A DNA stretch of 14,418 nt from NCBI GenBank assembly GCA_025998575.1, contig BNWD01000016.1:1-14418 (forward strand). Direction: 5' to 3'. The position numbers were made by a program, and so were the translations under genes. Below, piece after piece: positions 1 to 14,418 of this stretch (its first letter is position 1; the number at the start of each line of letters is the position of its first letter). This DNA comes from Alphaproteobacteria bacterium (GTDB taxonomy: Bacteria > Pseudomonadota > Alphaproteobacteria > RUG11792). Under the pieces are notes generated by a model. The model did not search any database and was not told where the DNA came from. It saw only the letters and a list, made by a program, of their open reading frames with translations.

Positions 1-18
1 TTTTGAATCACAATGTGT

Positions 19-24
19 AAGGAG
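19..24 (+). promoter_or_regulatory. Shine-Dalgarno site of the large secreted protein gene
   Basis: AAGGAG lies 9 bases before the ATG at 34. It decides against the in-frame ATG at 13, which lies upstream of this site. The same site and spacing recur at 13519, where the match to this locus also begins. Confidence 0.85.
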
Positions 25-33
25 TTAACTACT

Positions 34-3000
34 ATGAGAAATAACAATGCTAATACCAGAATGTTGAGGAAGTTACTACTCCTCGCTATCCCTTGCTTTC
101 CTGAAACAGTGTGGTCAATGCAAGAACCGAACAAGTTTCTTGCTGTGTTTGATCAGGTTCAAAAACTAGATCTAAAGAAATTTAATACCAATGAAAAAGA
201 CATTATGTTATTGCAAACCCTTTTTACTTACACTCAAGACGATGTGCATAAAAGTGCGATTATGTGTCTTTATGGTTTGCATTGTTTGAAAAAAGAAATG
301 AAAAGAGTTGCGGAATTTCTTTCTACTAACGATTCTGACTTAAAAACTCAATTTCTTGCTGAATATAAAGGCAACCCTCATACAGCCGAACAAATTGTAA
401 AGTTGTTTGAAAATGATAATAGCTCGAAACAAATGCGTGTGGCATGTTCACTTGCATCTGATTGGTTTGATGATATTTCGAAGGTAGAAGATTTTAGCAC
501 CTTTAAATTTCTTGATTATTTGAAATATTACCCTATGCTTGCTGTTGTCGCCCAGGTTTTTACTCCTGATTTGCATGTTCTTCTTTCTTTGATGAGTGTG
601 AAAAATCTCTTTGGCATTAAAGAGTTTTTTCTGGATGAAGGAACACTGTCTCTGCTGCTCAATTCTTTTGATATTTTATTTGATCTATGTTCTTTTAGGC
701 AAGTTCTTTTCTCTCTATTTTACGATATTGATACGGGTCACCTTTTATGTTCCCCAAACGCAAACTCACTCGGCACACACCTTTCTAAGAGCTCGCTTGA
801 CGTCGTTAATGAAAATATGTTTATTTGTAAAACTTCAGACTACGGACTGTTCAAGCAAACATTAATTTATCTAAATACAATCGACTTTCCTAACAAAAAA
901 GAAGTCGAAGGCACTCTTGCCAAACACATTGATCCATTCTTCTTTGTCGGTATCGACACAGACTGGATGAAAATGTATGGAGTAGCTGTGAAGCAGCTAG
1001 AGGATGATAGAAAGTCTATATTTTCGTGTGCTTGCTCTTCAGCTTTGAACGCACTACAGAAAATCGATCAACAAAGTCAAGATGACACAAACCAACTTAT
1101 AAGTAACATGTGTGCTGATCAGGAAGCCTTTCCTGCTTTTTCTAGCATTGATAAAATTGCTTGTTTATTGCGCGACAAATTTGAACAACACCCATTAATA
1201 CAACACAGTTTCGACCAATCTCAATTGAACGAATTAACAACCTTGATACAGAAACCAGCGCAATGTAATTCATTAACAACATCTTTTCCTCGTTATGATG
1301 TGTGTTTGACGCCCTCCTCCTCTTACGAGTTTTTCTTTCCTTTTTTCTATCGCTTCCTTGGTTTGGATGATCTGGAAATGTTTGAACTCTATAAAGTTAA
1401 CTGCGTCGATTTACAAATATTTCCCCTACTGGAAGAATGCGTCTCTTACAATTTTAAATTTGACAAGGATGCGCTTATAGAAAAGAGCAAGACATTTGCT
1501 AATTATATGCGCAAATTGTGTAAAACAGTCACACAACAAAAGGTTGGCGCTATTCAAGCTCGACAATTATGTGTAGATACTAGAAACGCATTTAAGGCAT
1601 TACAAAACGAGTATAAAACTCAATTTTATCTTCGCGATGCTTCAAATGCTAGTTGTATTGAGGGTATAGATGACTGGTTTGAAAATAACATCTCGTCGGT
1701 TATTTGCGGCGAGGCACATTATCCCTGCGGAAATTTTAGCTATTTATCTGCCAATAGACAGGCTGCTGAAATATATAAATATAGAAAGGAAATTGTTAAT
1801 GATATAAACCAAATTTTTGATTGGATGAAAGGATGGGACGAAAACAAAGATTTTGATATTGAAGGTATGAAGAATGAAAAAACTTATCGAATGGAATGCT
1901 TTGTTAATGCATTCGAACAGAAAAACGATCTTAGGTTTGCAGGTTTTGTTTTTCCTCTATTTCTTTTTGCCCCTGAATTATGGCCAGATGAATATAATGA
2001 ACGGCGTATTATTAATAGATATTTTAAGGCGAAAATGGAGCAACGTCTTGATTTAGAGTTGCTTAACGACTTAAATAAATTTTGTAAACAGTATCCTAAA
2101 TATGAGCAAGATATTAATAATATAAAAAACGCTTTTGAAGGCTTCTTTACACAAATTAATGAATTAGATAACACAGCTGGTTGCCATTTGTGTGAATTTA
2201 ACCATTGTTTAGACAACATTTCTCCATGGCGGAATAGTGCCCGTGCACGAGCATACATTCAGTTTAAACGCGATGCCCCTGAATGGCGTGTGTTTCAGGC
2301 GCTGAGAGCTTTTGAAAGAGAGCAGAGTTTGCAAGTTGATGATGCTTCGCTTTCAGTTAATTCACCAGAAAACCCGTTATCATTAAGCTCGGTGTCTTCT
2401 TTGACGTTTTCCCCCGAGTCGACGTCCTCTATATCCTCATCTGTTCCCTTGTCTTTCTCCGAAGAGTCGCTATTTCGGCTTACGCGTCCATTGAATTTGA
2501 CCACGCAAAATGTTCAAGCTGTATGGAAGTATTGTTGCCCAGTTATTAGTCCTGGGTCGTTTGCTGGAAGTAAGTGCACGGCGGATTTTGATGTAGCTGC
2601 TAATCAGTATGGGTTTGAAGTTTTGGATATTCTGTCTAAGACGCGTAGAGTCGTAAAGGATCTGGATTCGCAAGGGAAGCTAACAGGTACTGAAGTTGCA
2701 GCAGCTATTGGTGGGAGTGCAAAGTTAACGGATGCTGAGGGTCAGGCTTTGGCAGATGCCCTTTGTGGTAATTTGTATGGCTGTTCTGATGCTTTGAGTT
2801 TTTTTAATACGCTTGCTGTTGTTGTTTGCGGGTCGAGGGCTAACATTAATTCATTGAAGGAGTTTGCATTAAGTAATACGTTGGGTTTCTGTCAGATCGA
2901 AACGTTTCTGGACAGTTTTACAAAGGATAATTTTGGGGGTTCGACTTTTGAGGCGATATTGACAAAGCTGGCGAATCAAACTACAGTGTGTCAAAAAGCC

Positions 3001-3954
3001 GATGGTAGTAATCAGCAATTAGGAAAGACGGGTAGTGAACATGATGTTAGTGATGATGGTGCGGCTTGGGTTACTGGTGCCGTTGGTTCAGCTAAAACGT
3101 TTGGTACGACGCTAGCCGATGCGTTTACGACAAAGTTGAAGGTTACTGCCGGTTTTGAAGCGAAACTTAGAGCTACTCTACCTAATTTGTTTGCTGGTAT
3201 GAAGGTTAACTTGGCGGGTTCAGAAGGTGTTGCTATTGTTCCAAATATGACCGGTACTTATTACACAGGTGGGGAATTTCGTGTTAACAAAGAGAAGTTG
3301 ACTGCTATTAATCAAGTTGGATACAAAGGGTACTATAGCGATGGTGGCTCCTCATCTGTTACTAATGCTAAGACACGCGATAATGATGATAGGTTGATTG
3401 AAATCCTGTTTTATGATTTAATTCAAGATCGTGTTAAGCAAGAAGGTCTTGGCGATAGCTCTTTTATTGCAAAGATGGATGACTTAGTCGTTGACGATGG
3501 GGGTTGGGAAATGCTAACGAATAGTACTGCTAGCGGGAATGTTGATGGATGTTGTATTAATTATTCTTCTTCTGGTAAAGTTGTTGCGCCTAAAGCCGAG
3601 TCTCCGTTTATCAGCCTTGCTAAACCTCTTGGTTGGGATGTGAATGCGTTTAATCGGTCTACTCCTCCTAATATTGGGGAATTGGGTATACAAGAGTATG
3701 GGAAGAATAACACTAAAGCCCCTACTGGTCTGGACAAGTTGGTCAACCATATTGCTGCAAAAAATCCGGTGCATTTGGTTAGTACTGTTAAGGCTCTTAC
3801 TGGCAATCCCAAGACCCTCAGGTTAGTACTTGGTGAAAGAGCTGTTCTCGATGCTTTTAATAAAAAACTTGGGTATTTGAAGGGCACTATTGAGGCTGCG
3901 CATAAAGGTGGTACCATCAGTTCGGGTTCTCTTACGAAGTATAAGTTTACGTGA
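34..3954 (+). CDS. Large cysteine-rich secreted protein, unknown family
   Basis: This gene encodes 1306 residues that I do not recognise. The ATG at 34 is chosen for its AAGGAG site; an in-frame ATG at 13 would add 7 residues. Residues 1-28 form a signal peptide: basic N-terminus, LLLLAIP core, likely cleavage after VWS near residue 28. There is no lipobox, because P precedes the Cys of AIPC. The mature protein has about 34 cysteines, including C-rich clusters near residues 330, 560 and 720, which fits an exported, disulfide-containing protein. A Ser/Pro-rich low-complexity linker lies at about residues 770-814 and separates a helical, Asn/Phe/Lys-rich N-terminal part from a Gly/Ser/Thr/Asp-rich C-terminal part. 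I see no transmembrane anchor, autotransporter barrel or catalytic motif. Base composition changes at the linker, suggesting a mosaic gene. The signal-peptide module is shared with fragments at 13534 and 13882. An effector or surface protein is possible but unproven. Confidence 0.88.
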   Translation: MRNNNANTRMLRKLLLLAIPCFPETVWSMQEPNKFLAVFDQVQKLDLKKFNTNEKDIMLLQTLFTYTQDDVHKSAIMCLYGLHCLKKEMKRVAEFLSTNDSDLKTQFLAEYKGNPHTAEQIVKLFENDNSSKQMRVACSLASDWFDDISKVEDFSTFKFLDYLKYYPMLAVVAQVFTPDLHVLLSLMSVKNLFGIKEFFLDEGTLSLLLNSFDILFDLCSFRQVLFSLFYDIDTGHLLCSPNANSLGTHLSKSSLDVVNENMFICKTSDYGLFKQTLIYLNTIDFPNKKEVEGTLAKHIDPFFFVGIDTDWMKMYGVAVKQLEDDRKSIFSCACSSALNALQKIDQQSQDDTNQLISNMCADQEAFPAFSSIDKIACLLRDKFEQHPLIQHSFDQSQLNELTTLIQKPAQCNSLTTSFPRYDVCLTPSSSYEFFFPFFYRFLGLDDLEMFELYKVNCVDLQIFPLLEECVSYNFKFDKDALIEKSKTFANYMRKLCKTVTQQKVGAIQARQLCVDTRNAFKALQNEYKTQFYLRDASNASCIEGIDDWFENNISSVICGEAHYPCGNFSYLSANRQAAEIYKYRKEIVNDINQIFDWMKGWDENKDFDIEGMKNEKTYRMECFVNAFEQKNDLRFAGFVFPLFLFAPELWPDEYNERRIINRYFKAKMEQRLDLELLNDLNKFCKQYPKYEQDINNIKNAFEGFFTQINELDNTAGCHLCEFNHCLDNISPWRNSARARAYIQFKRDAPEWRVFQALRAFEREQSLQVDDASLSVNSPENPLSLSSVSSLTFSPESTSSISSSVPLSFSEESLFRLTRPLNLTTQNVQAVWKYCCPVISPGSFAGSKCTADFDVAANQYGFEVLDILSKTRRVVKDLDSQGKLTGTEVAAAIGGSAKLTDAEGQALADALCGNLYGCSDALSFFNTLAVVVCGSRANINSLKEFALSNTLGFCQIETFLDSFTKDNFGGSTFEAILTKLANQTTVCQKADGSNQQLGKTGSEHDVSDDGAAWVTGAVGSAKTFGTTLADAFTTKLKVTAGFEAKLRATLPNLFAGMKVNLAGSEGVAIVPNMTGTYYTGGEFRVNKEKLTAINQVGYKGYYSDGGSSSVTNAKTRDNDDRLIEILFYDLIQDRVKQEGLGDSSFIAKMDDLVVDDGGWEMLTNSTASGNVDGCCINYSSSGKVVAPKAESPFISLAKPLGWDVNAFNRSTPPNIGELGIQEYGKNNTKAPTGLDKLVNHIAAKNPVHLVSTVKALTGNPKTLRLVLGERAVLDAFNKKLGYLKGTIEAAHKGGTISSGSLTKYKFT

Positions 3955-4031
3955 TCTTTTCTTTCTTTTTTGTTTTCGCACAACATGTTTCGTGTGCACG
4001 CAAGTGTGATATTGAAAAGTTCTCCAAAAAG

Positions 4032-4128
4032 AAGCTATGAGAAAGTTTCCTTGGAACAAACCTCACTACCAACTCCCAAGAAAAAAGCATAAGTGGATTG
4101 GGTGAAGATGAATAGACTTTACTGTATG
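4032..4128. repeat. Dispersed repeat, copy 1 (about 79% identical to 8409-8504)
   Basis: About 97 bases resemble 8409-8504, with 63 of the first 80 positions identical by hand alignment and no gap in that stretch. One plus-strand frame (4037-4105) reads a peptide with MRxFxWN and HYQLPRK, the same motif that ends the reading frame at 8110-8472. It lacks its upstream part here, because a TGA stop stands 24 bases before that ATG. I read it as a remnant 3' end of a gene related to the 8110 locus, though two other frames also stay open, so the coding frame is uncertain. Confidence 0.6.
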
Positions 4129-4232: not shown

Positions 4233-5492
4233 TCAGCAGCTCGCTCGTTTGACGTCGTTTGTGAAGAATGTAGCGACGAGGGCGCAGATCATGGAGACTA
4301 CGACGAACACGAAGGCGCTTCGAAACATTGTCAAATTATATATTGGAGTTCCTGCATCTGTGACGAGTCCGTTTCGGAAAAAGTCCAGGAGGCGCCCAAG
4401 GATCGGCTGAAAAATGACTCCACTTGACATTATGAGCATGTTCATAAAACCGGTCGATGTTCCTCCGAATTCCGCAGGAACGAGGTCTATTGATAGCGCG
4501 AAGCATAGTGTGTTGGCACCAGCAAAAAGGCCGCAAAAGAATAATAGAGCGACGCAAAGTTCGAAACTGAGGCTGTCGTTGTAAATCGCAAAAATGAACG
4601 CTATGAGCATACCAACAGCAGATATGCTAATGGCGTTTTTGTAGCTGTTTATTTTTTCGGCAAGCCATGAAAAAATGATGCCTCCGACTCCGAATCCTAT
4701 AAAAATAAATGCAGAAGAGAGTGCCGCTTTCTCTGTAGAAACACCATATCTCTGTTCGAGAAACGGAATTCCCCAGAGCTCTGCTATGGCGCTTAATGGA
4801 AGGTATGAAGCCATTCCATAAATTCCTACTATCCATGTTTTTTTGTTTTTGATGACTTTTTTTATACCATCGAGTATTTTCTGTTGACTTTTATTTTTTT
4901 CTTCTGTCGCTTTTTCCTCTTTTTTATTCTTGAGGAGCAACGCTGCGATTATGGAAATGACGATTCCAGCAGCAGCGAAAATGAACGTCGTTTGCCTCCA
5001 TCCTATTTTGTCGACTAGAAATGCCGTAGGTGCAGCTCCAGAGATTCCCCCAAAGCACCCCATAAACATTGTTATGCTCATCAACATCGAAACCTTGCTC
5101 TTTTCGAAAAAATCAATTGCGACCTTTCCGCAACACAAAAACGCGGAGGCAGATGCAACTCCTATTAAGAAACGCCCTAATTCCAATTGAAAAATGCAAG
5201 TTGCAGAACCAAAAATGAATGCGCCAACTCCGCACAATGCGCTGCTAATTGCTATCATACCGCGCACTCCGAGCTTGTCTGTTAACATGCCGCACGGAAC
5301 TTGCAACGCAACATATGGGATATAAAGGACGGAAATGACGAAGCCGATCATCGAGGAATTCAAGCCGAAACCACCCATCAAATCATTGACGAGTACACTT
5401 GGCTCAACGCGAAGAACGTACTCATACAAATAAAACAACCACGCTATGCTTATCATAAGCATAGGGGCTCCTCTATTGCTTTTGCACTCCAT
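4233..5492 (-). CDS. MFS transporter, 12-helix permease
   Basis: This encodes a major facilitator superfamily permease of 419 residues in the inner membrane; the substrate cannot be told from sequence. Hydrophobic helices fill both halves. The first-helix block WLFYLYEYVLRVEPS (residues 19-31 region) is typical of an MFS subgroup common in intracellular gammaproteobacteria and alphaproteobacteria, and the loop 2-3 motif A appears as GMLTDKLGVRG at about residues 68-78. A charged Lys/Glu loop at about 189-219 joins the two six-helix halves, and GWRQTTFIFA at 164-173 is typical of helix 6. The open frame extends to 5603, but a good promoter at 5524-5552 would start transcription near 5517, so the ATG at 5492 is preferred; an ATG at 5516 would be nearly leaderless. 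The Shine-Dalgarno site is weak. The gene is monocistronic, convergent with the large secreted protein gene, and looks intact. Confidence 0.93.
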   Translation of the reverse strand: MECKSNRGAPMLMISIAWLFYLYEYVLRVEPSVLVNDLMGGFGLNSSMIGFVISVLYIPYVALQVPCGMLTDKLGVRGMIAISSALCGVGAFIFGSATCIFQLELGRFLIGVASASAFLCCGKVAIDFFEKSKVSMLMSITMFMGCFGGISGAAPTAFLVDKIGWRQTTFIFAAAGIVISIIAALLLKNKKEEKATEEKNKSQQKILDGIKKVIKNKKTWIVGIYGMASYLPLSAIAELWGIPFLEQRYGVSTEKAALSSAFIFIGFGVGGIIFSWLAEKINSYKNAISISAVGMLIAFIFAIYNDSLSFELCVALLFFCGLFAGANTLCFALSIDLVPAEFGGTSTGFMNMLIMSSGVIFQPILGRLLDFFRNGLVTDAGTPIYNLTMFRSAFVFVVVSMICALVATFFTNDVKRASC

Positions 5493-6337: not shown

Positions 6338-6467
6338 ATAATTACTTTTTGTAGTAAAAGCAAGATATGCAATATAATTGGAATTAAGGCTGGGACCAAT
6401 TATGAATAAATTATTAATATGTAATATAGTATTGCTTATATTTAAGTGACGTTGGATGCACAATTGA

Positions 6468-6770
6468 GAACGGGCATCAACTTCAAGAGAAAATGTACGC
6501 TCATTTTATTGTTATTTAGCTCTTTTATTGCCAATTTGCGGACCAGAAGACTATAAACTAAAACCACATTTACTCCAGTAAAAGCTGAAGAAAATCATTG
6601 ATTTAACTAATAATTGCAAACTCTATTGGAGCGAAACGCTTGGATTCATTTGCGGAATACTGCAGATTAATGCTGAGGCTTATACTGAAAAATTCTTGGA
6701 ACTAAACGGCACTTTTATCACAGGAGAACGACAATTATCTCAGTGGAAAGAGTGGCAGTTATCAATATAG
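6468..6770 (+). pseudogene. MPWGAHGW-family secreted protein, truncated copy C
   Basis: One frame from 6468 to TAG 6768-6770 holds CGPEDYKLKPHLL and KKIIDLT, matching CGPADHKLEKPFLL and KKLQKFIDL of the copy at 13996-14410 and CGTADYKLKKPFLL of the copy at 7170-7536. Near the end FLELNGTFITGERQLSQWKEW aligns with FWFLNxxFIxGYKxIEEW. The signal peptide and the MPWGAHGW box are missing, and an in-frame TAA lies at 6579-6581. This is a 5'-truncated, more diverged pseudogene. Its 3' end overlaps the start of the 6743-7102 frame. Function unknown. Confidence 0.6.
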
Positions 6771-7102
6771 ATGACGTTATATCAAATGATATATGTTATG
6801 AATTGGATAGAATTTCTTTTGCTAAGGATAGCGAAATATTTAAAGAAATGAAGCGGTTATTAGAAACGTGTCCTGTTCGAATATTGACAGGAACTTCACA
6901 GAGAATACAAATTTTATATCGAATACATAAATCTTCAGAGGTATATAACAAACTAGAACCATTAAAAGAATTCTCTGATGATAGTTTAATTTTGGAGAGA
7001 AAACGTAAAGAAAGAATATTGGTAATATGCATTTCTATTAAAGATGGATTAACATCAATTGAACTCGAACGCTTTTTAAAGAGAAAAAAAATGAGAAATT
7101 AA
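6743..7102 (+). CDS. Hypothetical 119-residue protein
   Basis: The open frame starts at GTG 6743 and ends at TAA 7100-7102. The start is uncertain: AGGAG at 6722-6726 is 16 bases away, too far for normal use, and the frame stays open upstream into pseudogene copy C. The product is acidic early and basic at the end (FLKRKKMRN), with no signal peptide or membrane segment; RILTGTSQRIQILYRIHKS in the middle and RKRKERILVICIS near residue 90 suggest a mixed alpha/beta protein. I recognise no family. It lies directly upstream of MPWGAHGW copy A on the same strand, 67 bases away, so it could be part of that cassette. It could also be a remnant whose true 5' end was replaced. Confidence 0.45.
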   Translation: MERVAVINIDDVISNDICYELDRISFAKDSEIFKEMKRLLETCPVRILTGTSQRIQILYRIHKSSEVYNKLEPLKEFSDDSLILERKRKERILVICISIKDGLTSIELERFLKRKKMRN

Positions 7103-7169
7103 CTAATATTTAATCATTAATCGATATTCTATAACTAAGGAGATATATTAAAAAGCTTGGGGAGGCAAT

Positions 7170-7536
7170 GTGAATATTTTATTGAAGATAATAGCGGTTG
7201 TTGTTGTTTTTATTAATTGTTTAGAGGCAGAGGATTGGAAACCAAAGATGCCCTGGGGAGCTCATGGATGGTACAGAGGTCTTGTTTGCGCTCTAGTTGC
7301 AAAATATATTGCCATGTTGCGGCACTGCTGATTATAAATTGAAGAAACCATTTCTTTTGGAGAAGAAGAAAAATGAATTTTTATATGACACACCTTCTGG
7401 CCCAGCAGTTATTCTTAGTTATTTAGAAGAATTTTATGGTCTCCAATTTGCGGATGAGTTCTGGTTTCTAAACGAACGCTTTATCTATGGCTATAAGAAA
7501 ATAGAAGAATGGGTGGAAATATGCAAAGATAATTGA
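7170..7536 (+). pseudogene. MPWGAHGW-family secreted protein, frameshifted copy A
   Basis: A GTG start at 7170 follows GGGGAGG (7159-7165). Residues 1-20 are a signal peptide (NILLKIIAVVVVFINCLEA), then EDWKPKMPWGAHGWYRG. This frame stops at TGA 7329-7331. The homologous continuation, CCGTADYKLKKPFLLEKKK to FADEFWFLNERFIYGYKKIEEW, is in the next frame and ends at 7536. Against copy B the region 7295-7312 is 2 bases shorter, placing the indel there. Repaired, the protein would have about 122 residues. The downstream part is clean for 70 codons, so the break is recent, or the join is made by frameshifting. Function unknown; export to the periplasm or host is inferred from the signal peptide. 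Confidence 0.7.
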
Positions 7537-8109
7537 CGTTAGGATCGAATATTATAGAAATAAAAAACCAACTGGTCACTACTGAGTTAAGCGCACTAAA
7601 GATTACCATCCTAAAAACTTTCATACTTTACAATGAGAAACCATTCCTAAATATTTGATTGAAACAGCAAAATACTTGGTATATTTGCAATCATTTTTAC
7701 TGCTAACGTTAAAAAAATTAAATGCAATCTTTTACTATTTGCATTTCTAGTTAATATTGCAAAATTTGCATCAGTGTAAATAGCATTTGCTTTATGAAGA
7801 AGCTTTTAAAGAATTAGTGTTTTTGTTACTAATTTCAAATTCAAAAAACAACTGTTTCTGTAGACAGCAGGTTATTCATATGAAACTAAACTTTTTGCTG
7901 TATTTTTTTAATTGCCCTCAAATCTTGCAACATTCTTTTATTTTTACAAGCATTATTAAAATATAATTCATAACGCATTACAGTGCTAAAATCACTCTTT
8001 CAATATGCAAACTCTGAATTATGTATAATTTTTACATTCAAAACCTGTTATCGATAAAGCAGTATAATATTGGCCATTGCTTCTTGTAGTGGTCTTGGAA
8101 TTTTAAGGA
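7537..8109. other. Gene-poor stretch with remnants downstream of copy A
   Basis: No intact gene is seen. At about 7545-7640 one plus frame reads RIEYYRNKKPTGHY, a TGA, then VKRTKDYHPKNFHT; this aligns at DNA level with the segment downstream of copy B (13922-13987, minus). At about 7690-7780 another plus frame reads KKIKCNLLLFAFLVNIAKFAS before TAA, a signal-peptide-like string resembling the LAIP-type leaders elsewhere in the window. The rest is AT-rich without clear structure. AAACTCTGAATTAT at 8009-8022 recurs at 9014-9027. Confidence 0.35.
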
Positions 8110-8241
8110 ATGTATGGAAACTACATTTGTTATTATAGTGTTTGCGCTTTCTTCTTGAGTTTTGCAAGGCTTTACGTCTTTGAATACATAAGAATTTTTC
8201 CTTTTCATTCCATTATAAGAAAGTTCTATGACTTTAAACAA
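8038..8241 (-). pseudogene. Possible coding remnant, unknown
   Basis: A minus-strand frame of 67 codons reads MKRKNSYVFKDVKPCK, then a stretch ending SLKFQDHYKKQWPILYCF and stop. Its composition is more protein-like than the opposite strand here, which is aromatic-rich, the usual look of antisense. It has only a TTG start and no Shine-Dalgarno site. I recognise no family; it may be a fragment of a mobile-element or accessory gene, or chance. Confidence 0.2.
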
Positions 8242-8472
8242 ATATCAAACTTAATGAGAGCGAGAGCAATGAATGGCATAAAAGCTATTACTAGAAAAAA
8301 ACTTGATGAATTGGAAGAATATTCAAAAACAGTCGATGAACGCCTTGAGCGCTATAGACAAAAACGAGACTATTCGTTTGATAATTACTACTATAAAAAA
8401 CACAAAAAAGCCATGAGAACGTTCCATTGGAACGAACTTCACTATCAACTTCCAAGAAAAAACCCTCCTTGA
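8225..8472 (+). pseudogene. Hypothetical charged protein, probably a 3' fragment
   Basis: The frame is open from 8110, but only the part from about 8225 looks coding. ATGs at 8254 and 8269 lack good Shine-Dalgarno sites. The product is a highly charged helix (RKKLDELEEYSKTVDERLE, possible coiled coil) followed by a Tyr/Lys-rich segment FDNYYYKKHKKAM and the motif MRTFHWNELHYQLPRK. The motif recurs as MRKFPWNKPHYQLPRK at 4037-4105, where the frame runs 3 codons further than here: TGG there is TGA at 8470-8472 here. That points to a premature stop or simple divergence. I recognise no family. Confidence 0.35.
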
Positions 8473-8504
8473 ATCGGGTGAGGATGTGGGAGACCACTGT
8501 ATGA
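8409..8504. repeat. Dispersed repeat, copy 2 (partner of 4032-4128)
   Basis: This is the second copy of the 79%-identical element, here continuous with an upstream open frame. Similarity continues past the stop codon to CTGTATG in both copies, so the duplicated unit included 3' flanking DNA. Confidence 0.6.
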
Positions 8505-8886
8505 AAACTTGAAAAAGATTATCTTGGTTTGAGTTTGACCTTATTAAAGCAGAGCGAAAAACTCTGTCGTTTGGTGTAGTGATGGCGAGCTGTTATAATT
8601 CGAGAGCAACAAGATAAATGTCGCTATTCATAGCTTCTAGGCTCAAAAAAATACTGATCATGTTTTTACATATGGAAGAAATGTGTTTACAGAACAATAT
8701 AGAACAAGATATTTTTACTATATAGAAATTGCAGAACTAGAAATTCATGTTGATAATATACATATTACAGAGCAAAAAGTATCTCCATCTCATATCAGGC
8801 AGATAGTAAAGTATATAAAGAATATCCTGATATAAATGCATCTATCCACAACTTCCTAAAATAATAAAAGTTGGTAACAGAATTAT
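8505..8886 (+). other. Gene-poor stretch with decayed reading frames
   Basis: No intact gene is seen. On the plus strand one frame (about 8657-8835) reads TDHVFTYGRNVFTEQYRTRY and IEIAELEIHVDNIHITEQK, and a second frame continues SISYQADSKVYKEYPDINAS to a double TAA. These look like pieces of one frameshifted gene of unknown family. The frame resumes with ELFREYPDIRK near 8880-8910, so EYPDI occurs twice, encoded by a 17-base direct repeat. Confidence 0.3.
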
Positions 8887-8907
8887 TTAGAGAATATCCT
8901 GATATAA
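8819..8907. repeat. 17-bp exact direct repeat, 72-bp period
   Basis: AGAATATCCTGATATAA occurs at 8819-8835 and again at 8891-8907. The offset of 72 bases is a multiple of three, and both copies encode EYPDI in the same frame, as expected of an in-frame peptide repeat in a decayed gene. Confidence 0.6.
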
Positions 8908-9010
8908 GAAAGTAGGCACAAAATTAATTTCCGGAGATTGATAAACTTGCTCTAAAACTCTCTCGATTGCGGCAGGTGGGTTTATAATAATCTTTGTTGA
9001 ATTTAAGATA
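8887..9010 (-). pseudogene. Remnant of a repeated gene (AAIERVLEQ motif)
   Basis: The minus strand reads RILNSTKIIINPPAAIERVLEQ, then VYQSPEINFVP, and stops at 8887-8889. It resembles SCAIDRVLNQEEISIP at 13173-13298 (minus) and SCAIDIVLNQESLEEV at 12189-12332 (plus). DNA similarity supports it: TAAAACTCTCTCGATTGCG here against TAAAACTCTGTCTATTGCG near 13250. There is no start codon or Shine-Dalgarno site. The function is unknown. Confidence 0.4.
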
Positions 9011-9135
9011 CGTAAACTCTGAATTATAATAGAACTTATTCTTATAAAAACGTTAAAATATGTATATATAATTTTTAAATAATTCTTGTTTCAAAATTTC
9101 AAAAAACAAATCTTGTTCATCTCAACGTGATATTC

Positions 9136-9164
9136 TTGAAAAGATTTTTGAAGTATGATATCCT
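9136..9164 (+). promoter_or_regulatory. Promoter of tRNA-Leu and probably tig
   Basis: TTGAAA (9136-9141), a 17-base spacer and TATCCT (9159-9164) give a good sigma70-type promoter. The expected start near 9171 lies about 26 bases before the mature tRNA. No other good promoter is seen in the 50 bases between tRNA and tig, so tig is probably co-transcribed. Confidence 0.6.
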
Positions 9165-9196
9165 GAAGATATAGGTTTGCTCTGAGTTTAAGTCGA

Positions 9197-9281
9197 GCGG
9201 ATGTGGTGAAAATGGTAGACACGCAAGATTTAGGTTCTTGTGGCTGAGGCCGTGGGGGTTCAACTCCCTTCATCCGCACCA
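9197..9281 (+). tRNA. tRNA-Leu (anticodon UAG), CCA encoded
   Basis: The 85-base gene folds as a class II tRNA. The acceptor stem GCGGATG pairs with CATCCGC (9271-9277), followed by A and an encoded CCA. The anticodon stem CAAGA/TCTTG encloses loop TTTAGGT, giving anticodon TAG, which reads CUN leucine codons. The long variable arm (GGCTGAGGCC region) fits leucine, and the T arm carries GGTTCAACTCCC. It lies 50 bases upstream of tig and probably shares its transcript. Confidence 0.96.
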
Positions 9282-9331
9282 AGTTTTGTGTATTTTTGTT
9301 TTCCTGGCTAGTTTTGAAGGGAGTTTTGGCT

Positions 9332-10693
9332 ATGAAGTTTGAAAGAATAAAAGCTGACGGCATGAAATATGAATATAAAATTGCGATCAGTGCCGACGAG
9401 GTCGAAGAAGGCATAGTTTCTGCTGTTCAGGAGCGCGCTAAAACATTCAAAATGCAAGGGTATCGGCCTGGTCATGTTCCTCTCAATATCGTAAGAAATA
9501 GTGTTGAGACTTCTGTTATCAATAAAGTTTTGGAAGAGCTGGTTAATAACGCCTATTCTGAAATTATAAAAGAGATTGGCGTTAAAGAAATTGCGACGAG
9601 GCCAGTTTATACTCCTGAGAAATCATATGAAAAAAACTGTGATTTTACCGTGGCGATAGTTTTCGAGGCGGCGCCTGTATTCGAATTGAAGTCATATGAT
9701 ATGAGTTTGACAAAAATTACTGCAAAAGCTAGCCAACAAGAGATAGATGGCATGAAGAAAACTTTTATGGAAAAAGATCCAGCTTATGAAGATGTTGATA
9801 AGGATTACGCAATAAAGTCAACGGATTTGGTTAGTTATAAGGCTATTTGCTATGTCAACGGAATTGAAAGCAAGAAGAAAAGTTTCCAAAATACTGTCGT
9901 TATTCCTGAAGAAATTTCGGAAGATGCTAAGATGCTAAACGAGTTTTTTGATAAGAAAAAAGGCGATGTTTTCGATTTTGTTCCTGATAATGAAAAGAAG
10001 TTGAAATATAAGATAGTAATCAAATCTGTAAAAAAGGCTGCGGTTAATATAACTGAAGACGAGTACGCAAAGAATAAAGGCCTCAAAAATGCAGCGGATT
10101 TTCATTCGGCGGTTGTTCAACATATTATTTCTGAAATGGAAAAAGGAATTTATTTATATCATAAAAATCAGGTTCTTGAGTATTTTGACACACAATATAA
10201 TCTTGAATTGCCACAAGATCTTCTTGCTCGAGAAATGAAAAACGTTTTAGTTAGCGTCAAGCAGGAATTGGCGCGCGAAAAAAGGGAAGGTACCGCATCT
10301 GACGAGGATCTGAAGAAAACTGATGACGAGTTGATGGAAGAATACAAGGAAATCGCTGAAAAACGCTTGAAATATAGCTTTATTTTGAACAAACTTGCTG
10401 AAACTGAAAAAATCACTGTCACTAATGAGTTGTTGCAAAAAACGATTTCAGCTGATATTTCACGTGATCCAAATAATGCTAATCGCCTAATGGCTTACTA
10501 TACGAAAGTTCCAGGGGCTATAGATACTAAGATTGCTGAAATAAAAGAGCGACTCGTTGTCCAGACGATTTTTGACAAAGCAAAAGATGTGAGAAACGTT
10601 GAAAAATCAAAGACTGAAATTGATGCACTTGTCGACAAACTGCTCAACGACGAACCAGAAACGGATAATGTTAGCGCTAATGAAATTAAATAA
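9332..10693 (+). CDS. tig: Trigger factor, ribosome-associated chaperone
   Basis: Trigger factor binds the ribosome exit tunnel and shields nascent chains; the family also has peptidyl-prolyl isomerase activity. The ATG at 9332 follows GAAGGGAG by 8 bases; an in-frame upstream start at 9296 lacks support. The product has 453 residues, normal for the family. Residues 1-115 are the ribosome-binding domain, with the signature GYRPGHVP at 43-50 (GFRxGxxP in most homologues). Residues about 157-235 sit where the FKBP-like isomerase domain belongs but are strongly degenerate: the usual FxGG-type active-site segment is replaced by SYKAICYVNGIES, so isomerase activity is doubtful. Residues about 240-430 are the helical arm domain, rich in Lys/Glu. 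The gene is intact and follows tRNA-Leu. The clpP-clpX genes that often follow tig in Alphaproteobacteria are absent here. Confidence 0.97.
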   Translation: MKFERIKADGMKYEYKIAISADEVEEGIVSAVQERAKTFKMQGYRPGHVPLNIVRNSVETSVINKVLEELVNNAYSEIIKEIGVKEIATRPVYTPEKSYEKNCDFTVAIVFEAAPVFELKSYDMSLTKITAKASQQEIDGMKKTFMEKDPAYEDVDKDYAIKSTDLVSYKAICYVNGIESKKKSFQNTVVIPEEISEDAKMLNEFFDKKKGDVFDFVPDNEKKLKYKIVIKSVKKAAVNITEDEYAKNKGLKNAADFHSAVVQHIISEMEKGIYLYHKNQVLEYFDTQYNLELPQDLLAREMKNVLVSVKQELAREKREGTASDEDLKKTDDELMEEYKEIAEKRLKYSFILNKLAETEKITVTNELLQKTISADISRDPNNANRLMAYYTKVPGAIDTKIAEIKERLVVQTIFDKAKDVRNVEKSKTEIDALVDKLLNDEPETDNVSANEIK

Positions 10694-11815
10694 ATGTCGT
10701 CTTTATGTTGGTTTTTGCTTAACGCATTTGCTTGACTTTTTTATATATAAAACGATAATTTTAAACAATCTAATTATATTTGGCGTCTAAAATATAAATG
10801 AAGTATGTGAGCTCCTTGAACATCGAAATTGTATGCAATATACCGAATTTGCAAATAAGAATTATGTAAATAACATCTCTGAAGCTTTTCATTAAAAATA
10901 ACCAGTTGTAATTTCCATATAGAGACGTTCATAAAAAAACTATTTAGAAATAGAACTATTATATAATTTACGAATGCATTTTTGTTTAGAGAAGCCGTTG
11001 TTTTTCGATGCAATTTAGCAAAATAACATATTCATAATAGAGATGTGTTTTTATATGAAAAATTCCATGTCAAAATACTTGTTTTCGATCAATTTATTTA
11101 ACGAATAGCGTTTTCTCTATATATTTCAAGCTCTGTCTTTTTCTAAAATCGAAGTATTTTATAATTCTTTGTGTTACTGATTAGAATTGTCTCAAGCTCA
11201 AGAATAAATTTCTTTAATATACCAAAGTTAAAGCAATATCTAGTTTTGTTAGCATTATATTTTATTGCCGATTTTCCACAACGCTATATATGCTAAAGAA
11301 ATATCTGCGTAAAAAAATCAACAAACAAGTAGACATTGTAACAACCAAATCACATAGAATTCGATATTAAAGTGAGCGTCATTTGATCTGCTTGAAATTC
11401 TTCATATAAAAATAGTTCATGAATTAACAAAGCATATTGTTTTGTAAAGATACAATAATTATGTTTAGTTTTAAATAAATAATGAACGTCACAAATCGAC
11501 GTTCTGAGCATAAATCTTATACACACTATAAAACGTTAATGTCAACTGTTTTAGAAAAATATTTATTCGTCAAGAATTCATTTGCAAAATGCCTATATTG
11601 CACTTCTAATAGATATAATTAAAATGCAACAATCGAAAACAATAATTAAGCTTTGGGTAAACTAAACATTTCTTTGTTTTTATTATGAACTAAAGTTTTA
11701 TTAACAATATTCTATTGGCAATTACAAATATTTTACTCGTGTAACGCAACACTCCGCTCAACGAAATAATCGCTCCACTTTACAGTAAAGATTTTTTTCA
11801 AAAATATTATAATAA
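10694..11815. other. AT-rich gene-free stretch downstream of tig
   Basis: No intact gene, tRNA or clear terminator is seen; the only terminator-like feature is a T-run near 10737-10742 without a stem. One short plus-strand remnant at about 10793-10894 reads NEVCELLEHRNCMQYTEF and ends in ISEAFH plus TAA. A long minus frame at 10774-11013 overlaps it with only a TTG start and is not supported. Two DnaA-box-like 9-mers occur (11272-11280, 11517-11525), too few to call an origin. Confidence 0.4.
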
Positions 11816-11989
11816 TTTGTATTTAGAAAGAACTATAATTCAAAGAGAAATATTTGCAAGATAGCAACCAATGATACACTTGATAAAGAAATAGAATTAA
11901 ATCTTGTTTTAACTACGGCTGAGTTTGAAGTTAACTTAGCTTCAACAATTTGTAAAAAAATATATTTAGAAAAATGTTTCATCATTTAA
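11816..11989 (+). pseudogene. Coding remnant, unknown (57 codons, no start)
   Basis: The frame is open between stops and reads KIATNDTLDKEIELNLVL, then TTAEFEVNLASTICKKIYLE, ending at TAA 11987-11989. The amphipathic Leu/Glu/Lys pattern and absence of AT-homopolymer residues look like real protein rather than random AT-rich translation. There is no start codon or Shine-Dalgarno site. It may belong with the remnant at 12189-12332 on the same strand, but the frame in between is broken. Confidence 0.3.
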
Positions 11990-12188
11990 ATCAATAAAAC
12001 ACATTATTAGATAACTCAAAAACTTGTTCTGGTAACTTAATATAAATCTATTCTTGGATTATCTACGTAGAATTCCACGACAAATAATATAACTGATAAG
12101 TTTTCATCATATAATATGAACATGAAAAATTAATAAAATATCAGAAACTATTATAGCAAGCAAGCTTCCGGAATCTGACATTATATAA

Positions 12189-12332
12189 ACCAAATCATGT
12201 GCAATCGATATAGTTTTAAATCAAGAAAGCTTAGAAGAAGTTTACTTATATTTAGCCATCCTAGTAATTGATCTTACAGATATTTTTTTTAATACAGTAT
12301 CACTAAGATTTTCTACAGTTTTCACAAAATAG
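12189..12332 (+). pseudogene. Remnant of a repeated gene (SCAIDIVLNQ motif)
   Basis: The open frame after TAA 12186-12188 reads TKSCAIDIVLNQESLEEV, then LYLAILVIDLTDIFFNTV, and ends at TAG 12330-12332. Upstream of the TAA the same frame reads SETIIASKLPESDII, so the TAA is probably an internal lesion. SCAIDxVLNQE is shared with the minus-strand remnant at 13173-13298, and AIxxVLxQ with the one at 8887-9010. Function unknown. Its end overlaps the last codons of the convergent minus-strand pseudogene. Confidence 0.4.
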
Positions 12333-12943
12333 CATTGCCCCATAATTTACCACACAATAAGATATTATTTTTTATATCGGTGTATTTCATAAATAATTCT
12401 CTTGTTAAGCTGTCTTTTAGTAAGTTATGAATAGCTATATTTATCTCGTTGCCATCGATGTCACTATCCATCACGGTCGCAAGTGACAGCGTTTTTCGCT
12501 TCGCTATGATAAACTTAGGAATTATCTTCTCATACTTGTAATTCGCATTTCTACATATAGCTTTTATATTCAGATGAGACATCTTATTTAGCAGTAATTT
12601 TAATAAATCCCCATCTCTTCCACCTATCTCAAATGCACTAAAGCAAGACATGTTCATGTCAACATCAGTCAATATTCTAATTCTGTTTTCTTTTCTTGCT
12701 CAAGTCTCATTTCAAGACCATTAAATCCTAGCTATTCTTCGAAAGGCCTTTCCTTCAAGATATAGTCCTGGCAGGACCATATCTTTTGCTACATATACTT
12801 TACACGATTATCTACCAAACTTTGACTACGCTTGCAATACTTATACATATACATATTCGTAACTGGTTGGCTATTCCCTATGTTCGTTTCCAGCATAGCC
12901 ACTTTTTCATTTAGTTTTGATAAAATATTCATTTCTTTCTCCT
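12322..12943 (-). pseudogene. Broken gene starting MNILSKLNEKVAMLET, unknown
   Basis: An ATG at about 12941-12943 follows AAAGGAGAAAGAA, a near-perfect Shine-Dalgarno site. The first frame reads MNILSKLNEKVAMLETNIG, then NMYMYKYCKRSQSLVDNR, and hits TAG; it continues as SCQDYILKERPFEE, a second TAG, and LGFNGLEMRLEQ. A frame change near 12700 leads to ARKENRIRILTDVDMNMS and an open 116-codon stretch to 12322 (FEIGGRDGDLLKLLLNKM, FIIAKRKTLSLATVMDSD). Two stops plus a frameshift make it a pseudogene, although the 3' part is clean. There is no signal peptide or recognised family. The promoter, leader hairpin and ribosome-binding site all remain, so the 5' peptide of about 46 residues may still be made. 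Confidence 0.6.
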
Positions 12944-12971
12944 TTTACTAATATGAATTTTTTTGAAAAAC

Positions 12972-13005
12972 ATCAGCAAAGCTATGCTGATATCTATATG
13001 ATATC
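12972..13005 (-). promoter_or_regulatory. Leader hairpins, attenuator-like
   Basis: Read on the minus strand, ATCAGCA-TAGCTT-TGCTGAT (12972-12991) is a 7-bp hairpin followed by GTTTTTC, the form of a weak Rho-independent terminator, 30 bases before the Shine-Dalgarno site of the pseudogene at 12943. It overlaps a second inverted repeat GATATC-N5-GATATC (12989-13005), so the two folds could compete. Confidence 0.45.
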
Positions 13006-13027
13006 ACCCAGATTATGTGAGTATCAA
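12998..13027 (-). promoter_or_regulatory. Promoter upstream of the MNILSK pseudogene
   Basis: On the minus strand TTGATA (13022-13027), an 18-base spacer and TATCAT (12998-13003) match the sigma70 consensus well. The expected start falls at the edge of the hairpin in the leader. Confidence 0.5.
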
Positions 13028-13115
13028 CTAAAAAACGGGGATTGTCATCAAAATGGTTTTGTGTAAATTTTATTAGGTTTAAGCGGAAAATGTAGTCGCT
13101 TTGTGTCGTGATGCT

Positions 13116-13310
13116 GAGATATTCTAATGTAAAAAGAATGTTTTCTGTGGAGTGTTCTAAATGCTAGCGAGACTATAATAATAGAGTATGTACAAAATCA
13201 ACAAGAAGTTGATAAGGAATAGAAATTTCTTCTTGATTTAAAACTCTGTCTATTGCGCATGAGATTCTTATCAAAAACGTAGTTGATGGGCGATCACATT
13301 AGAATATCTC
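13116..13310. repeat. Perfect 15-bp inverted repeat, 165 bp apart
   Basis: GAGATATTCTAATGT at 13116-13130 is the exact reverse complement of ACATTAGAATATCTC at 13296-13310. The flanks do not extend the match. The enclosed segment contains a minus-strand coding remnant and no transposase, so a miniature mobile element is possible but unproven; no clear target duplication is visible. Confidence 0.55.
13173..13298 (-). pseudogene. Remnant of a repeated gene (SCAIDRVLNQ motif)
   Basis: The minus strand reads RPSTTFLIRISCAIDRVLNQ, then EEISIPYQLLVDFVHTLLL, and stops at 13173-13175. It is the closest relative of the plus-strand remnant at 12189-12332 and resembles the one at 8887-9010. It begins within the right arm of the 15-bp inverted repeat; a TAA precedes it. 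Function unknown. Confidence 0.4.
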
Positions 13311-13518
13311 TAAATGACGCAGCTTATTTCTTCTTGAACATCTAAGGTATATTTAATTTTCAAAAAATTTGCTAGAAAAACATTTAAGAATAATACTGAT
13401 AATCTTAGTATATTGCCAAAGCTTATAAACGCAACCCAAGAAGTGGCGCAGAAAAATACTATGTCGCCAATGCTATTTCTTTATAAAAAGAAAACAACAC
13501 TCTAGGCTGGGTTCTTAG
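13311..13518. other. Gene-free junction region with fragments
   Basis: No intact gene is seen. A plus frame at about 13384-13506 reads NNTDNLSILPKLINATQEVA, then SPMLFLYKKKTT to TAG, coding-like but without a start. The opposite strand over 13460-13500 reads SFYKEIALAT, echoing SFYNEIALL in the minus fragment at 13658-13882. Confidence 0.3.
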
Positions 13519-13735
13519 AAGGAGTGAACTACTATGACGTATAACAATGCTAATATCAGAATGTTGAGGAAGATACTGCTCCTAGCTATCCCTTGTTTGT
13601 GTAAACCTGTTTATGCTAACCAGGACAACGTACAACAGCAGTGCAAAAATAATCAAGTTAACCTTGACACTCTTTTTCTGACGTTGATCCAAGTTTGCAA
13701 CCAGCGGTTAACAATGCTATTTCGTTATAAAAAGA
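13468..13735. repeat. 24-bp direct repeat with one mismatch, 244-bp period
   Basis: CAATGCTATTTC(T/G)TTATAAAAAGA (23-24 bases) lies at 13468-13491 and 13712-13735. Between the copies sits the Shine-Dalgarno and signal-peptide module of the fragment at 13534. The repeat may mark a recombination joint. Confidence 0.6.
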
Positions 13736-13797
13736 GATCGACAACAATAGATTTAGAGTTTGCCAAAATTCGAACACAGCAAGAAAATTACCACTAG
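13534..13797 (+). pseudogene. 5' fragment of a paralogue of the large secreted protein
   Basis: AAGGAG (13519-13524) precedes the ATG by 9 bases. Residues 1-27 form a signal peptide (NNANIRMLRKILLLAIPC, cleavage likely after VYA), nearly identical to the protein at 34-3954: 71 of 80 bases from the Shine-Dalgarno site through the LAIPC codons match by hand. Past about 13630 there is no similarity; from 13658 the frame runs antisense to the minus-strand fragment. The 87-codon frame is therefore a chimera: a functional-looking export signal joined to unrelated or antisense sequence. Translation and export of a short peptide is possible. Confidence 0.6.
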
Positions 13798-13882
13798 CGC
13801 GCTCTGTTTCATGAAGTAAGGGGATAGCGATGAGTAGTATCTTCTTTAACAGCTTCATGCTTGTTCTCTTTGGCATTTTCAT
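13658..13882 (-). pseudogene. 5' fragment of another large-secreted-protein paralogue
   Basis: On the minus strand a GGAGG site precedes an ATG at 13880-13882 by about 12 bases. The product reads MKMPKRTSMKLLKKILLIAI, then PLLHETERAS with a likely signal cleavage after ERA, then GNFLAVFEFWQTLNLL. Both the leader and the mature start match the intact protein at 34-3954 (MLRKLLLLAIPCFPET and NKFLAVFDQVQKLDL). The frame stops at 13658 after 74 residues, so almost the whole mature domain is missing. It faces and overlaps the plus-strand fragment at 13534 by 140 bases. A GTG at 13900 in the same frame is a possible alternative start. Confidence 0.55.
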
Positions 13883-13921
13883 GCTTTCCACCACCTCCAC
13901 AGCAGGGAGTCTATCTTCACT

Positions 13922-13987
13922 CTATTCATAATGTTTTCTGCGACAATAGTCTTCATAATCATAGTATCCTTCCGGTTTTTTACTCAT
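13922..13987 (-). CDS. Small 21-residue frame downstream of copy B (KKPEGYY)
   Basis: The minus-strand ATG at 13985-13987 opens MSKKPEGYYDYEDYCRRKHY plus E and TAG. It starts 8 bases after the corrected stop of MPWGAHGW copy B and has only a weak Shine-Dalgarno site. The DNA aligns with the segment after copy A (KKPTGHY at about 7570), so the arrangement is inherited. It may be a tiny gene, or the decayed start of a longer one: the frame continues past the TAG into the leader of the fragment at 13882. Confidence 0.35.
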   Translation of the reverse strand: MSKKPEGYYDYEDYCRRKHYE

Positions 13988-13995
13988 AAAGCACT

Positions 13996-14410
13996 CTAAT
14001 CTAGGTCATCAACTGTTTTTGCACATTCATCCCATTCTTCTATGTTTTTATAGCCAGATATGAATGGTGAATTTAGAAACCAAAACTCATCTGCAAATGC
14101 CCACGCCATAAAATCTCTCTAAACAGTTAGTAATTTTGCAAGCAGCTATCCATGGGTGCGGTATAAATTCATAAGAAAGATCGATAAATTTCTGCAATTT
14201 CTTCTTTGCCAAAAGAAATGGTTTTTCCAATTTATGATCAGCAGGTCCACAACCATGAAGAAGATTTTTAGCTAATAAAGTACACGCTAATCCTCTATGC
14301 CATCCATGAGCTCCCCATGGCATCTTTGGTTCCCAATCCCATATACTTCCTGCTTGTGCAATGCTCATTGCATAAATCACAATCATTATAAGCTTTAATA
14401 CTATCTTCAT
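13996..14410 (-). pseudogene. MPWGAHGW-family secreted protein, frameshifted copy B
   Basis: The ATG at 14408-14410 follows GAGGTG closely. Residues 1-20 are a clean signal peptide (MKIVLKLIMIVIYAMSIAQA, cleavage at AQA), then GSIWDWEPKMPWGAHGWHRG, then CGPADHKLEKPFLLAKKK and CLERFYG. The frame ends at 14087 in a non-homologous tail (VGICR), while the homologous end (FADEFWFLNSPFISGYK, NIEEWDE) lies in the next frame to TAG 13996-13998. Alignment with copy A shows one extra base near 14101-14107, in a GTGGG stretch. Repaired length is about 138 residues. The 107-residue truncated form could still be exported. Function unknown. Confidence 0.7.
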
Positions 14411-14418
14411 AGCACCTC

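Follow-up and report, generated by a model that had tools for sequence, protein, structure and literature searches.

The window analyzed here is an entire contig (C16, 14,418 nucleotides) of an alphaproteobacterial assembly that amounts to 855,653 bases in 171 contigs and is 63.52% complete. The bacterium is a small member of the Holosporales, kin to known symbionts of single-celled hosts. The window carries at least five fragments of a multicopy protein family that we call Y, whose members are about 167 amino acids (aa) long and combine an N-terminal hydrophobic signal, conserved boxes, a hypervariable middle, and a basic C-terminus. Because open versions of Y exist, the fragments look like those of an expanding and decaying gene family rather than of a gene switched by broken reading frames.

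A sequence-only reading of the window had reported three copies of a family sharing an MPWGAHGW box, and all three places were indeed found to carry the family, both in profile searches and in searches with a single piece. For the former, a profile (A2) was built from pieces of Y and searched against the six-frame stretches of the fetched contigs; E-values are inflated where the stretch is itself a row of the profile (14090-14416, 13999-14118, 7152-7328, 7297-7533, and 8278-8475). Copy b, on the minus strand, starts with an open stretch of 107 aa (14087..14410) that holds an N-terminal signal, the MPWGAHGW box, a CGPADHKLEKPFLL box, the variable middle, and LERFYG (profile row 14090-14416, E=2.1e-56). 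It goes on in a different frame at 13999..14118 with FADEFWFLN, GYKNIEEWDECAKTVD, and a TAG end (profile row, E=3.6e-20), and then in a third frame as a C-terminal remnant (13925..14005, minus) of weak profile score (E=0.29), a stretch that is also carried by contig C43 at 5243-5323. Copy a, on the plus strand, opens with a GTG start, a signal, and the MPWGAHGW box (7170..7331; profile row 7152-7328, E=1.7e-24), loses its frame near the end of this stretch, and runs on in a different frame (7297..7536; profile row 7297-7533, E=1.7e-37) through CGTADYKLKKPFLL, LEEFYG, FADEFWFLN, and GYKKIEEW to a TGA end. Its signal, MNILLKIIAVVVVFINCLEAE, is also present in P0001, a deposited relative described below. 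Copy d (6468..6767, plus) is strongly diverged and consists of the stretches 6468-6578 and 6582-6767, with a TAA after 6578; it has CGPEDYKLKPHLL and a diverged middle in common with the family, and its 6582-6767 stretch, which is not a profile row, scored E=1.4e-4. With the 14090-14410 piece as sole query, matches were found at 7173-7310 (E=1.8e-13), 7288-7443 (E=2.7e-6), and 6522-6608 (E=0.010). Inspection of the frames showed that copy d is without the MPWGAHGW box, so that only the copies at 7170 and 14410 share it; these are also the two in which the good N-terminal signal that had been reported was recognized again, by eye. Two further fragments on the plus strand had been overlooked: copy c (8278..8475), which is a C-terminal half with ELEEYSKTVDERLERYRQKRDYSFDNYYYKKHKKAMRTFHWNELHYQLPRKNPP (profile row, E=3.5e-28), and fragment e (4016..4102), which holds the last box only, EAMRKFPWNKPHYQLPRKKHKWIG, just past a 1313-aa gene (not a profile row, E=3.8e-6).

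A genome-wide count, which had been proposed as a check, gave about 21 fragments, five in the window and about sixteen outside: three on C43, two each on C58 and C1, and one each on C33, C32, C47, C29, C21, C4, C62, C18, and C23 (start only). This number may include the same physical copy twice at assembly forks (C4, C62, and C21 share 127-base stretches), and it omits weak profile rows, including C38:3659-3823 (E=0.0011) and C29:2113-2250 (E=0.0096). Another profile, A1, by itself gave 18 places at E<=0.1, and genome-wide the exact MPWGAHGW box is present four times (two in the window, one on C33, and one on C58). None of the approximately 21 assembled fragments was a full-length open gene. 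The copy on C1 called C1a (C1:6112-6576) is open and lacks both ends. The statement that every copy is broken thus stands for the assembled close copies, but it does not extend to P0001, which is full length as deposited, nor to an open paralogue at C19:1614-2150.

The assembly itself bears on this count. Exactly 127 bases are common to five pairs of stretches, with at least one contig end in each pair: C16/C58 at the Y start, C43/C16 near the Y end, C4/C62 and C21/C4 at the last box, and C7/C43 in a second multicopy gene, X. In the window, the terminal 127 bases of the contig (14292-14418), where copy b starts, exactly match the C58 end, and the 127-base block 13870-13996 exactly matches the C43 end. 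Contig C23 ends just after gene X and a start that matches P0001 through EEWS. Exact sharing of 127 bases is the mark of an assembler of word length 127 at points where near-identical copies branch, which means that the assembly selects against the copies that are most alike. Since the family lies repeatedly at such contig ends, near-identical copies of Y are probably absent from the assembly, and intact close copies may be among them. More generally, decay can be overestimated when pseudogenes are counted in a fragmented assembly, since the copies likeliest to drop out are the most alike.

We examined differences per codon position in a DNA alignment of 13 copies. Over all pairs, which are non-independent, the differences at positions 1/2/3 came to 0.24/0.12/0.36 (box A), 0.25/0.13/0.38 (box B), 0.16/0.16/0.37 (box C2), and 0.53/0.39/0.49 (variable middle). 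When the pairs were kept disjoint, the combined boxes A, B, C2, and D gave 0.25/0.18/0.37 for three pairs (p=0.00068) and 0.26/0.20/0.38 for five pairs (p=6e-5), the two sets having copies in common, and the middle gave p=0.28 and 0.67. The third-position excess in the three conserved boxes indicates that the proteins were constrained before they broke. The copies of Y thus diverged largely while coding and acquired many of their disabling lesions later, as in a decayed gene family.

Intact copies elsewhere had been named as what would speak for a real family, and a full-length protein and a divergent open gene were found. Profile searches of 5.8 billion proteins returned relatives from just two sources, this genome and the record FACS1894113. 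The latter contributes P0001 (167 aa), P0002 (110 aa), and P0005 (129 aa), encoded by contigs 1726 and 1040 bases long; all three are known from protein records alone. In the genome under study, C19:1614-2150 (minus) is an open 179-aa gene and a divergent paralogue of Y, which matched a Y copy at E=2.4e-8 in the genome search and the Y profile with an hhalign probability of 97.2% over 87 columns. Together with the codon-position bias in the three boxes, these open relatives bear out the view of a real multicopy family that was formerly constrained. Adjoining the C19 paralogue is an open 137-aa gene (L089 2173-2586, minus) with an apparent N-terminal signal; it was considered as a member and rejected (hhalign probability 19%; BLASTP with the paralogue, E=0.80), and it is possibly a very distant relative. 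Incidentally, C1a (L051 6513-6576) and P0005 enter similar tails at the same place, QPITVLINNSCAIDRVLNQ and QPVTVLISRSCAIDRVLKQ, which may go back to a single old insertion common to the two genomes.

Beyond these, searches were negative. The genomes compared included 34 of the same family (0.5-1.1 Mb). A Y piece matched in 0 of 58 other genomes and A1 in 0 of 34 other genomes of the order; A2 hit 2 of 384 other genomes of the class (E=0.003-0.004 per genome) and the C19 protein 1 of 34 (E=0.039), all judged chance. No match to the 107-aa piece as a single query was found among the 5.8 billion proteins, in a search whose length limit would hide relatives above about 187 aa. A phage search with the C1a stretch returned none, and a PDB sequence search with A1 gave no significant match (best E=0.11). 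Y is an orphan family.

The copies are mosaics. Copy b and the C33 copy agree at 117 of 118 positions and then at 75 of the next 120 (p=1e-14), and copy b and C58a at 118 of 118 and then 38 of 63 (p=7.8e-14), whereas C33 and C58a are alike in both parts (117/118 and 61/63). Between the 7170 copy and copy b there is no comparable drop (78/109 and 69/94). The edge lies directly 3' of the MPWGAHGW box, and past this 118-base start copy b is about 60% identical to C33 and C58a. Such an edge reflects segmental recombination, for which gene conversion may have been the route, or duplication with replaced ends.

Several copies of Y lie next to other repeated DNA. A search for gene X, likewise an orphan, hit 7 places in this genome and 0 of 58 others; in the window the gene is a remnant of 119 aa from a GTG (6743..7102, plus) upstream of Y, and the order X-Y recurs on C23 and C32. 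A dispersed repeat at 8541..8911 (plus) begins about 65 bases past copy c and has counterparts on other contigs, and a repeat block at 12183..13320 has 96 matches at E<=1e-5 in the genome, itself included. Repeats stand within about 20 bases of the truncated ends of C58b, C43a, C43c, and C1a. The repeat library contained pieces of C16, C33, and C1, so that the matches beside C16c, on the 5' side of C33, and on the 5' side of C1a are partly self-matches. As a general cause of truncation, repeat insertion was rejected: no repeat matched in the 400 bases around 6 of the 15 fragments inspected. The core of the 12183-13320 block, like AGCGTTTCTCGCTNCGC, occurs 17 times with at most 2 mismatches and 0 times in a reversed control. 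Identical blocks of 80 and 48 bases are common to C33 and C29 (L045 4255-4392 and L049 6378-6515), the latter also being on C38; they form a further short repeat, which on C29 lies between two pieces of gene X.

We favor, with a probability of roughly 0.6, the view that Y is a lineage-specific, fast-evolving exported family shaped by duplication, recombination, and decay in a repeat-rich Holosporales genome. Behind it stand the multiplicity of Y, its lesions, the past constraint in its conserved boxes, its mosaic structure, and its open relatives. Y would have multiplied within the genome, in several places 3' of gene X; its segments would have been reshuffled between copies; and copies, some cut beside dispersed repeats, would now be decaying in a genome of low coding density. 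Export is predicted from inspection by eye of the copies at 7170 and 14410, P0001, and the C19 paralogue, each of which has positive residues and a hydrophobic core at its N-terminus. Given this signal, the variable middle, and the host-associated lineage, Y is likely a surface or host-facing protein. If it is indeed exported and fast changing, it would mark how a reduced symbiont meets its host.

Some observations weigh against this view. The codon bias weakens to 0.30/0.24/0.33 in the signal region and to 0.36/0.26/0.36 in box D and is missing from the 15-base LERFY box (0.19/0.10/0.15). Selection on the variable middle may be diversifying or relaxed, or else the missing bias there may reflect saturation or misalignment. 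P0001, although it has the N-terminal signal of the 7170 copy, is without the MPWGAHGW box. The family is unrecognized, as had been stated: P0001, P0002, and the two C19 genes gave no significant family match (best E 0.059 in Pfam, 0.085 in NCBIfam, and 0.22 in PHROGs, none of which reached a cut-off where one was given), and an AlphaFold model of P0001, a check that had also been proposed, had a mean predicted local distance difference test score of 41.5, too low for a fold search. The C33 copy has both ends and yet carries an internal stop and a lost frame. Finally, the identical starts could be due to recent duplication with replaced ends rather than to gene conversion.

The lesions speak to two other accounts, both of them very improbable. 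The sequence-only reading had suggested phase-variable or frameshift-dependent expression, in which full proteins would be made from broken frames. It had described each copy as disrupted differently, which is true of the three window copies; across the genome, though, the spot after LERFYG has lost its frame in 3 of 6 readable copies, which speaks for this account. The lengths at this spot differ, and the same copies are interrupted elsewhere too, by stops or lost frames. By eye, multiple defects are seen in most copies, and many are truncated. Among the 13 aligned copies the longest homopolymer was A7, none reaching 8 bases, and Tandem Repeats Finder returned 0 rows for 6400-8600 and 13850-14418 of the window; these copies and stretches thus hold no simple-sequence tract at which a switch could occur. 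Lesions that vary from copy to copy and fall in neither long homopolymers nor tandem repeats argue against phase variation, as does P0001. Alternatively, the lesions could have been made by assembly or sequencing errors. Copies do lie at the 127-base forks, the last frame change of copy b falls at the fork 13996/13997, and the C33 stop is the one difference from C58a within an otherwise identical 176-base block. However, none of the exact runs of at least 40 bases that the fetched contigs share covers the places where copy a (near 7297-7331), copy b (near 14100), and C33 (near 4800) lose the frame, and C33 has no 127-mer in common with the C16 or C58 starts. In addition, the unique genes of the window, that is, those for trigger factor, an MFS transporter, and the 1313-aa protein, are all open, which counts against generally poor sequence.

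A further question is whether the broken copies are dead or still in use. Y could be a plain relic, once functional and now drifting here without function, as the lack of a full-length open close copy, the 49% of the window spanned by open reading frames (ORFs) of at least 120 aa, and the 96 repeat matches would suggest. We find this doubtful, as the C19 paralogue is open in the same genome, P0001 is full length elsewhere, and the exact forks at family sequences suggest missing copies. Conversely, the copies could be silent cassettes from which an intact, expressed Y gains segments by gene conversion, so that its middle changes. The sharp edges of the mosaic blocks, the variable middle with its conserved flanks, the open relatives, and the X-Y junction into a P0001-like start at the C23 end all agree with this. 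So does the middle itself: of 7 copies spanning it, only C58b is not open there, the other 6 being b, a, C33, C1a, C43a, and C47; recent decay would also account for these open middles. Frame losses or stops in or beside conserved boxes, several single-box remnants that could donate no middle, and the failure to see an expression site in the assembly tell against cassettes, which we hold to be unlikely. Less likely again is the specific form in which a protist-associated Holosporales symbiont would diversify an antigen-like Y from this reservoir, possibly aimed at a single-celled host and not at animal immunity.

In Anaplasma, the msp2/p44 genes combine truncated silent copies, recombination mosaics, a variable middle, and an expression site. 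Y resembles them as a multicopy gene of surface or secreted type in a small-genome, host-associated alphaproteobacterium, with truncated copies, mosaics, and a variable middle. It differs in that its copies also bear stops and frame losses and that no expression site was seen, and no sequence relation is claimed. Msp2/p44, with its "functional pseudogenes" (PMC11946796, PMC2789410), is among the closest known systems. The dispersed repeats recall the Rickettsia palindromic elements and repeats like miniature inverted-repeat transposable elements, being short and lying in or beside genes of a reduced alphaproteobacterial genome. Rickettsia palindromic elements insert in genes. For the repeats seen here, what was shown is that they recur and that some Y ends have one close by. 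Genome reduction is also a feature of termite flagellate symbionts, whose habitat is possibly shared; the genomes compared are mostly of other phyla, and no Y family is named in the texts covered. An uncharacterized clade of "Candidatus Paracaedibacteraceae" is described as coming often from animal guts, especially those of termites (PMC11909080). Judging by sample-style names, a termite gut is a conceivable source of the present genome as well.

As to the other genes of the window, trigger factor (9296-10693) was 57% identical to that of the metagenome-assembled genome "Holosporales bacterium isolate Cc175_bin12", the sole locus found in the scan, and no publication on FACS1894113 or Cc175_bin12 was found in the literature searched. 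The 1313-aa ORF (13-3954), apparently of secreted type, had matches in none of the order's 34 other genomes. Its start has a repeat of 78% identity at 13519-13635 and an inverted one of 66% at 13748-13851, and parts of the ORF are matched by long open frames on C5 and C52.

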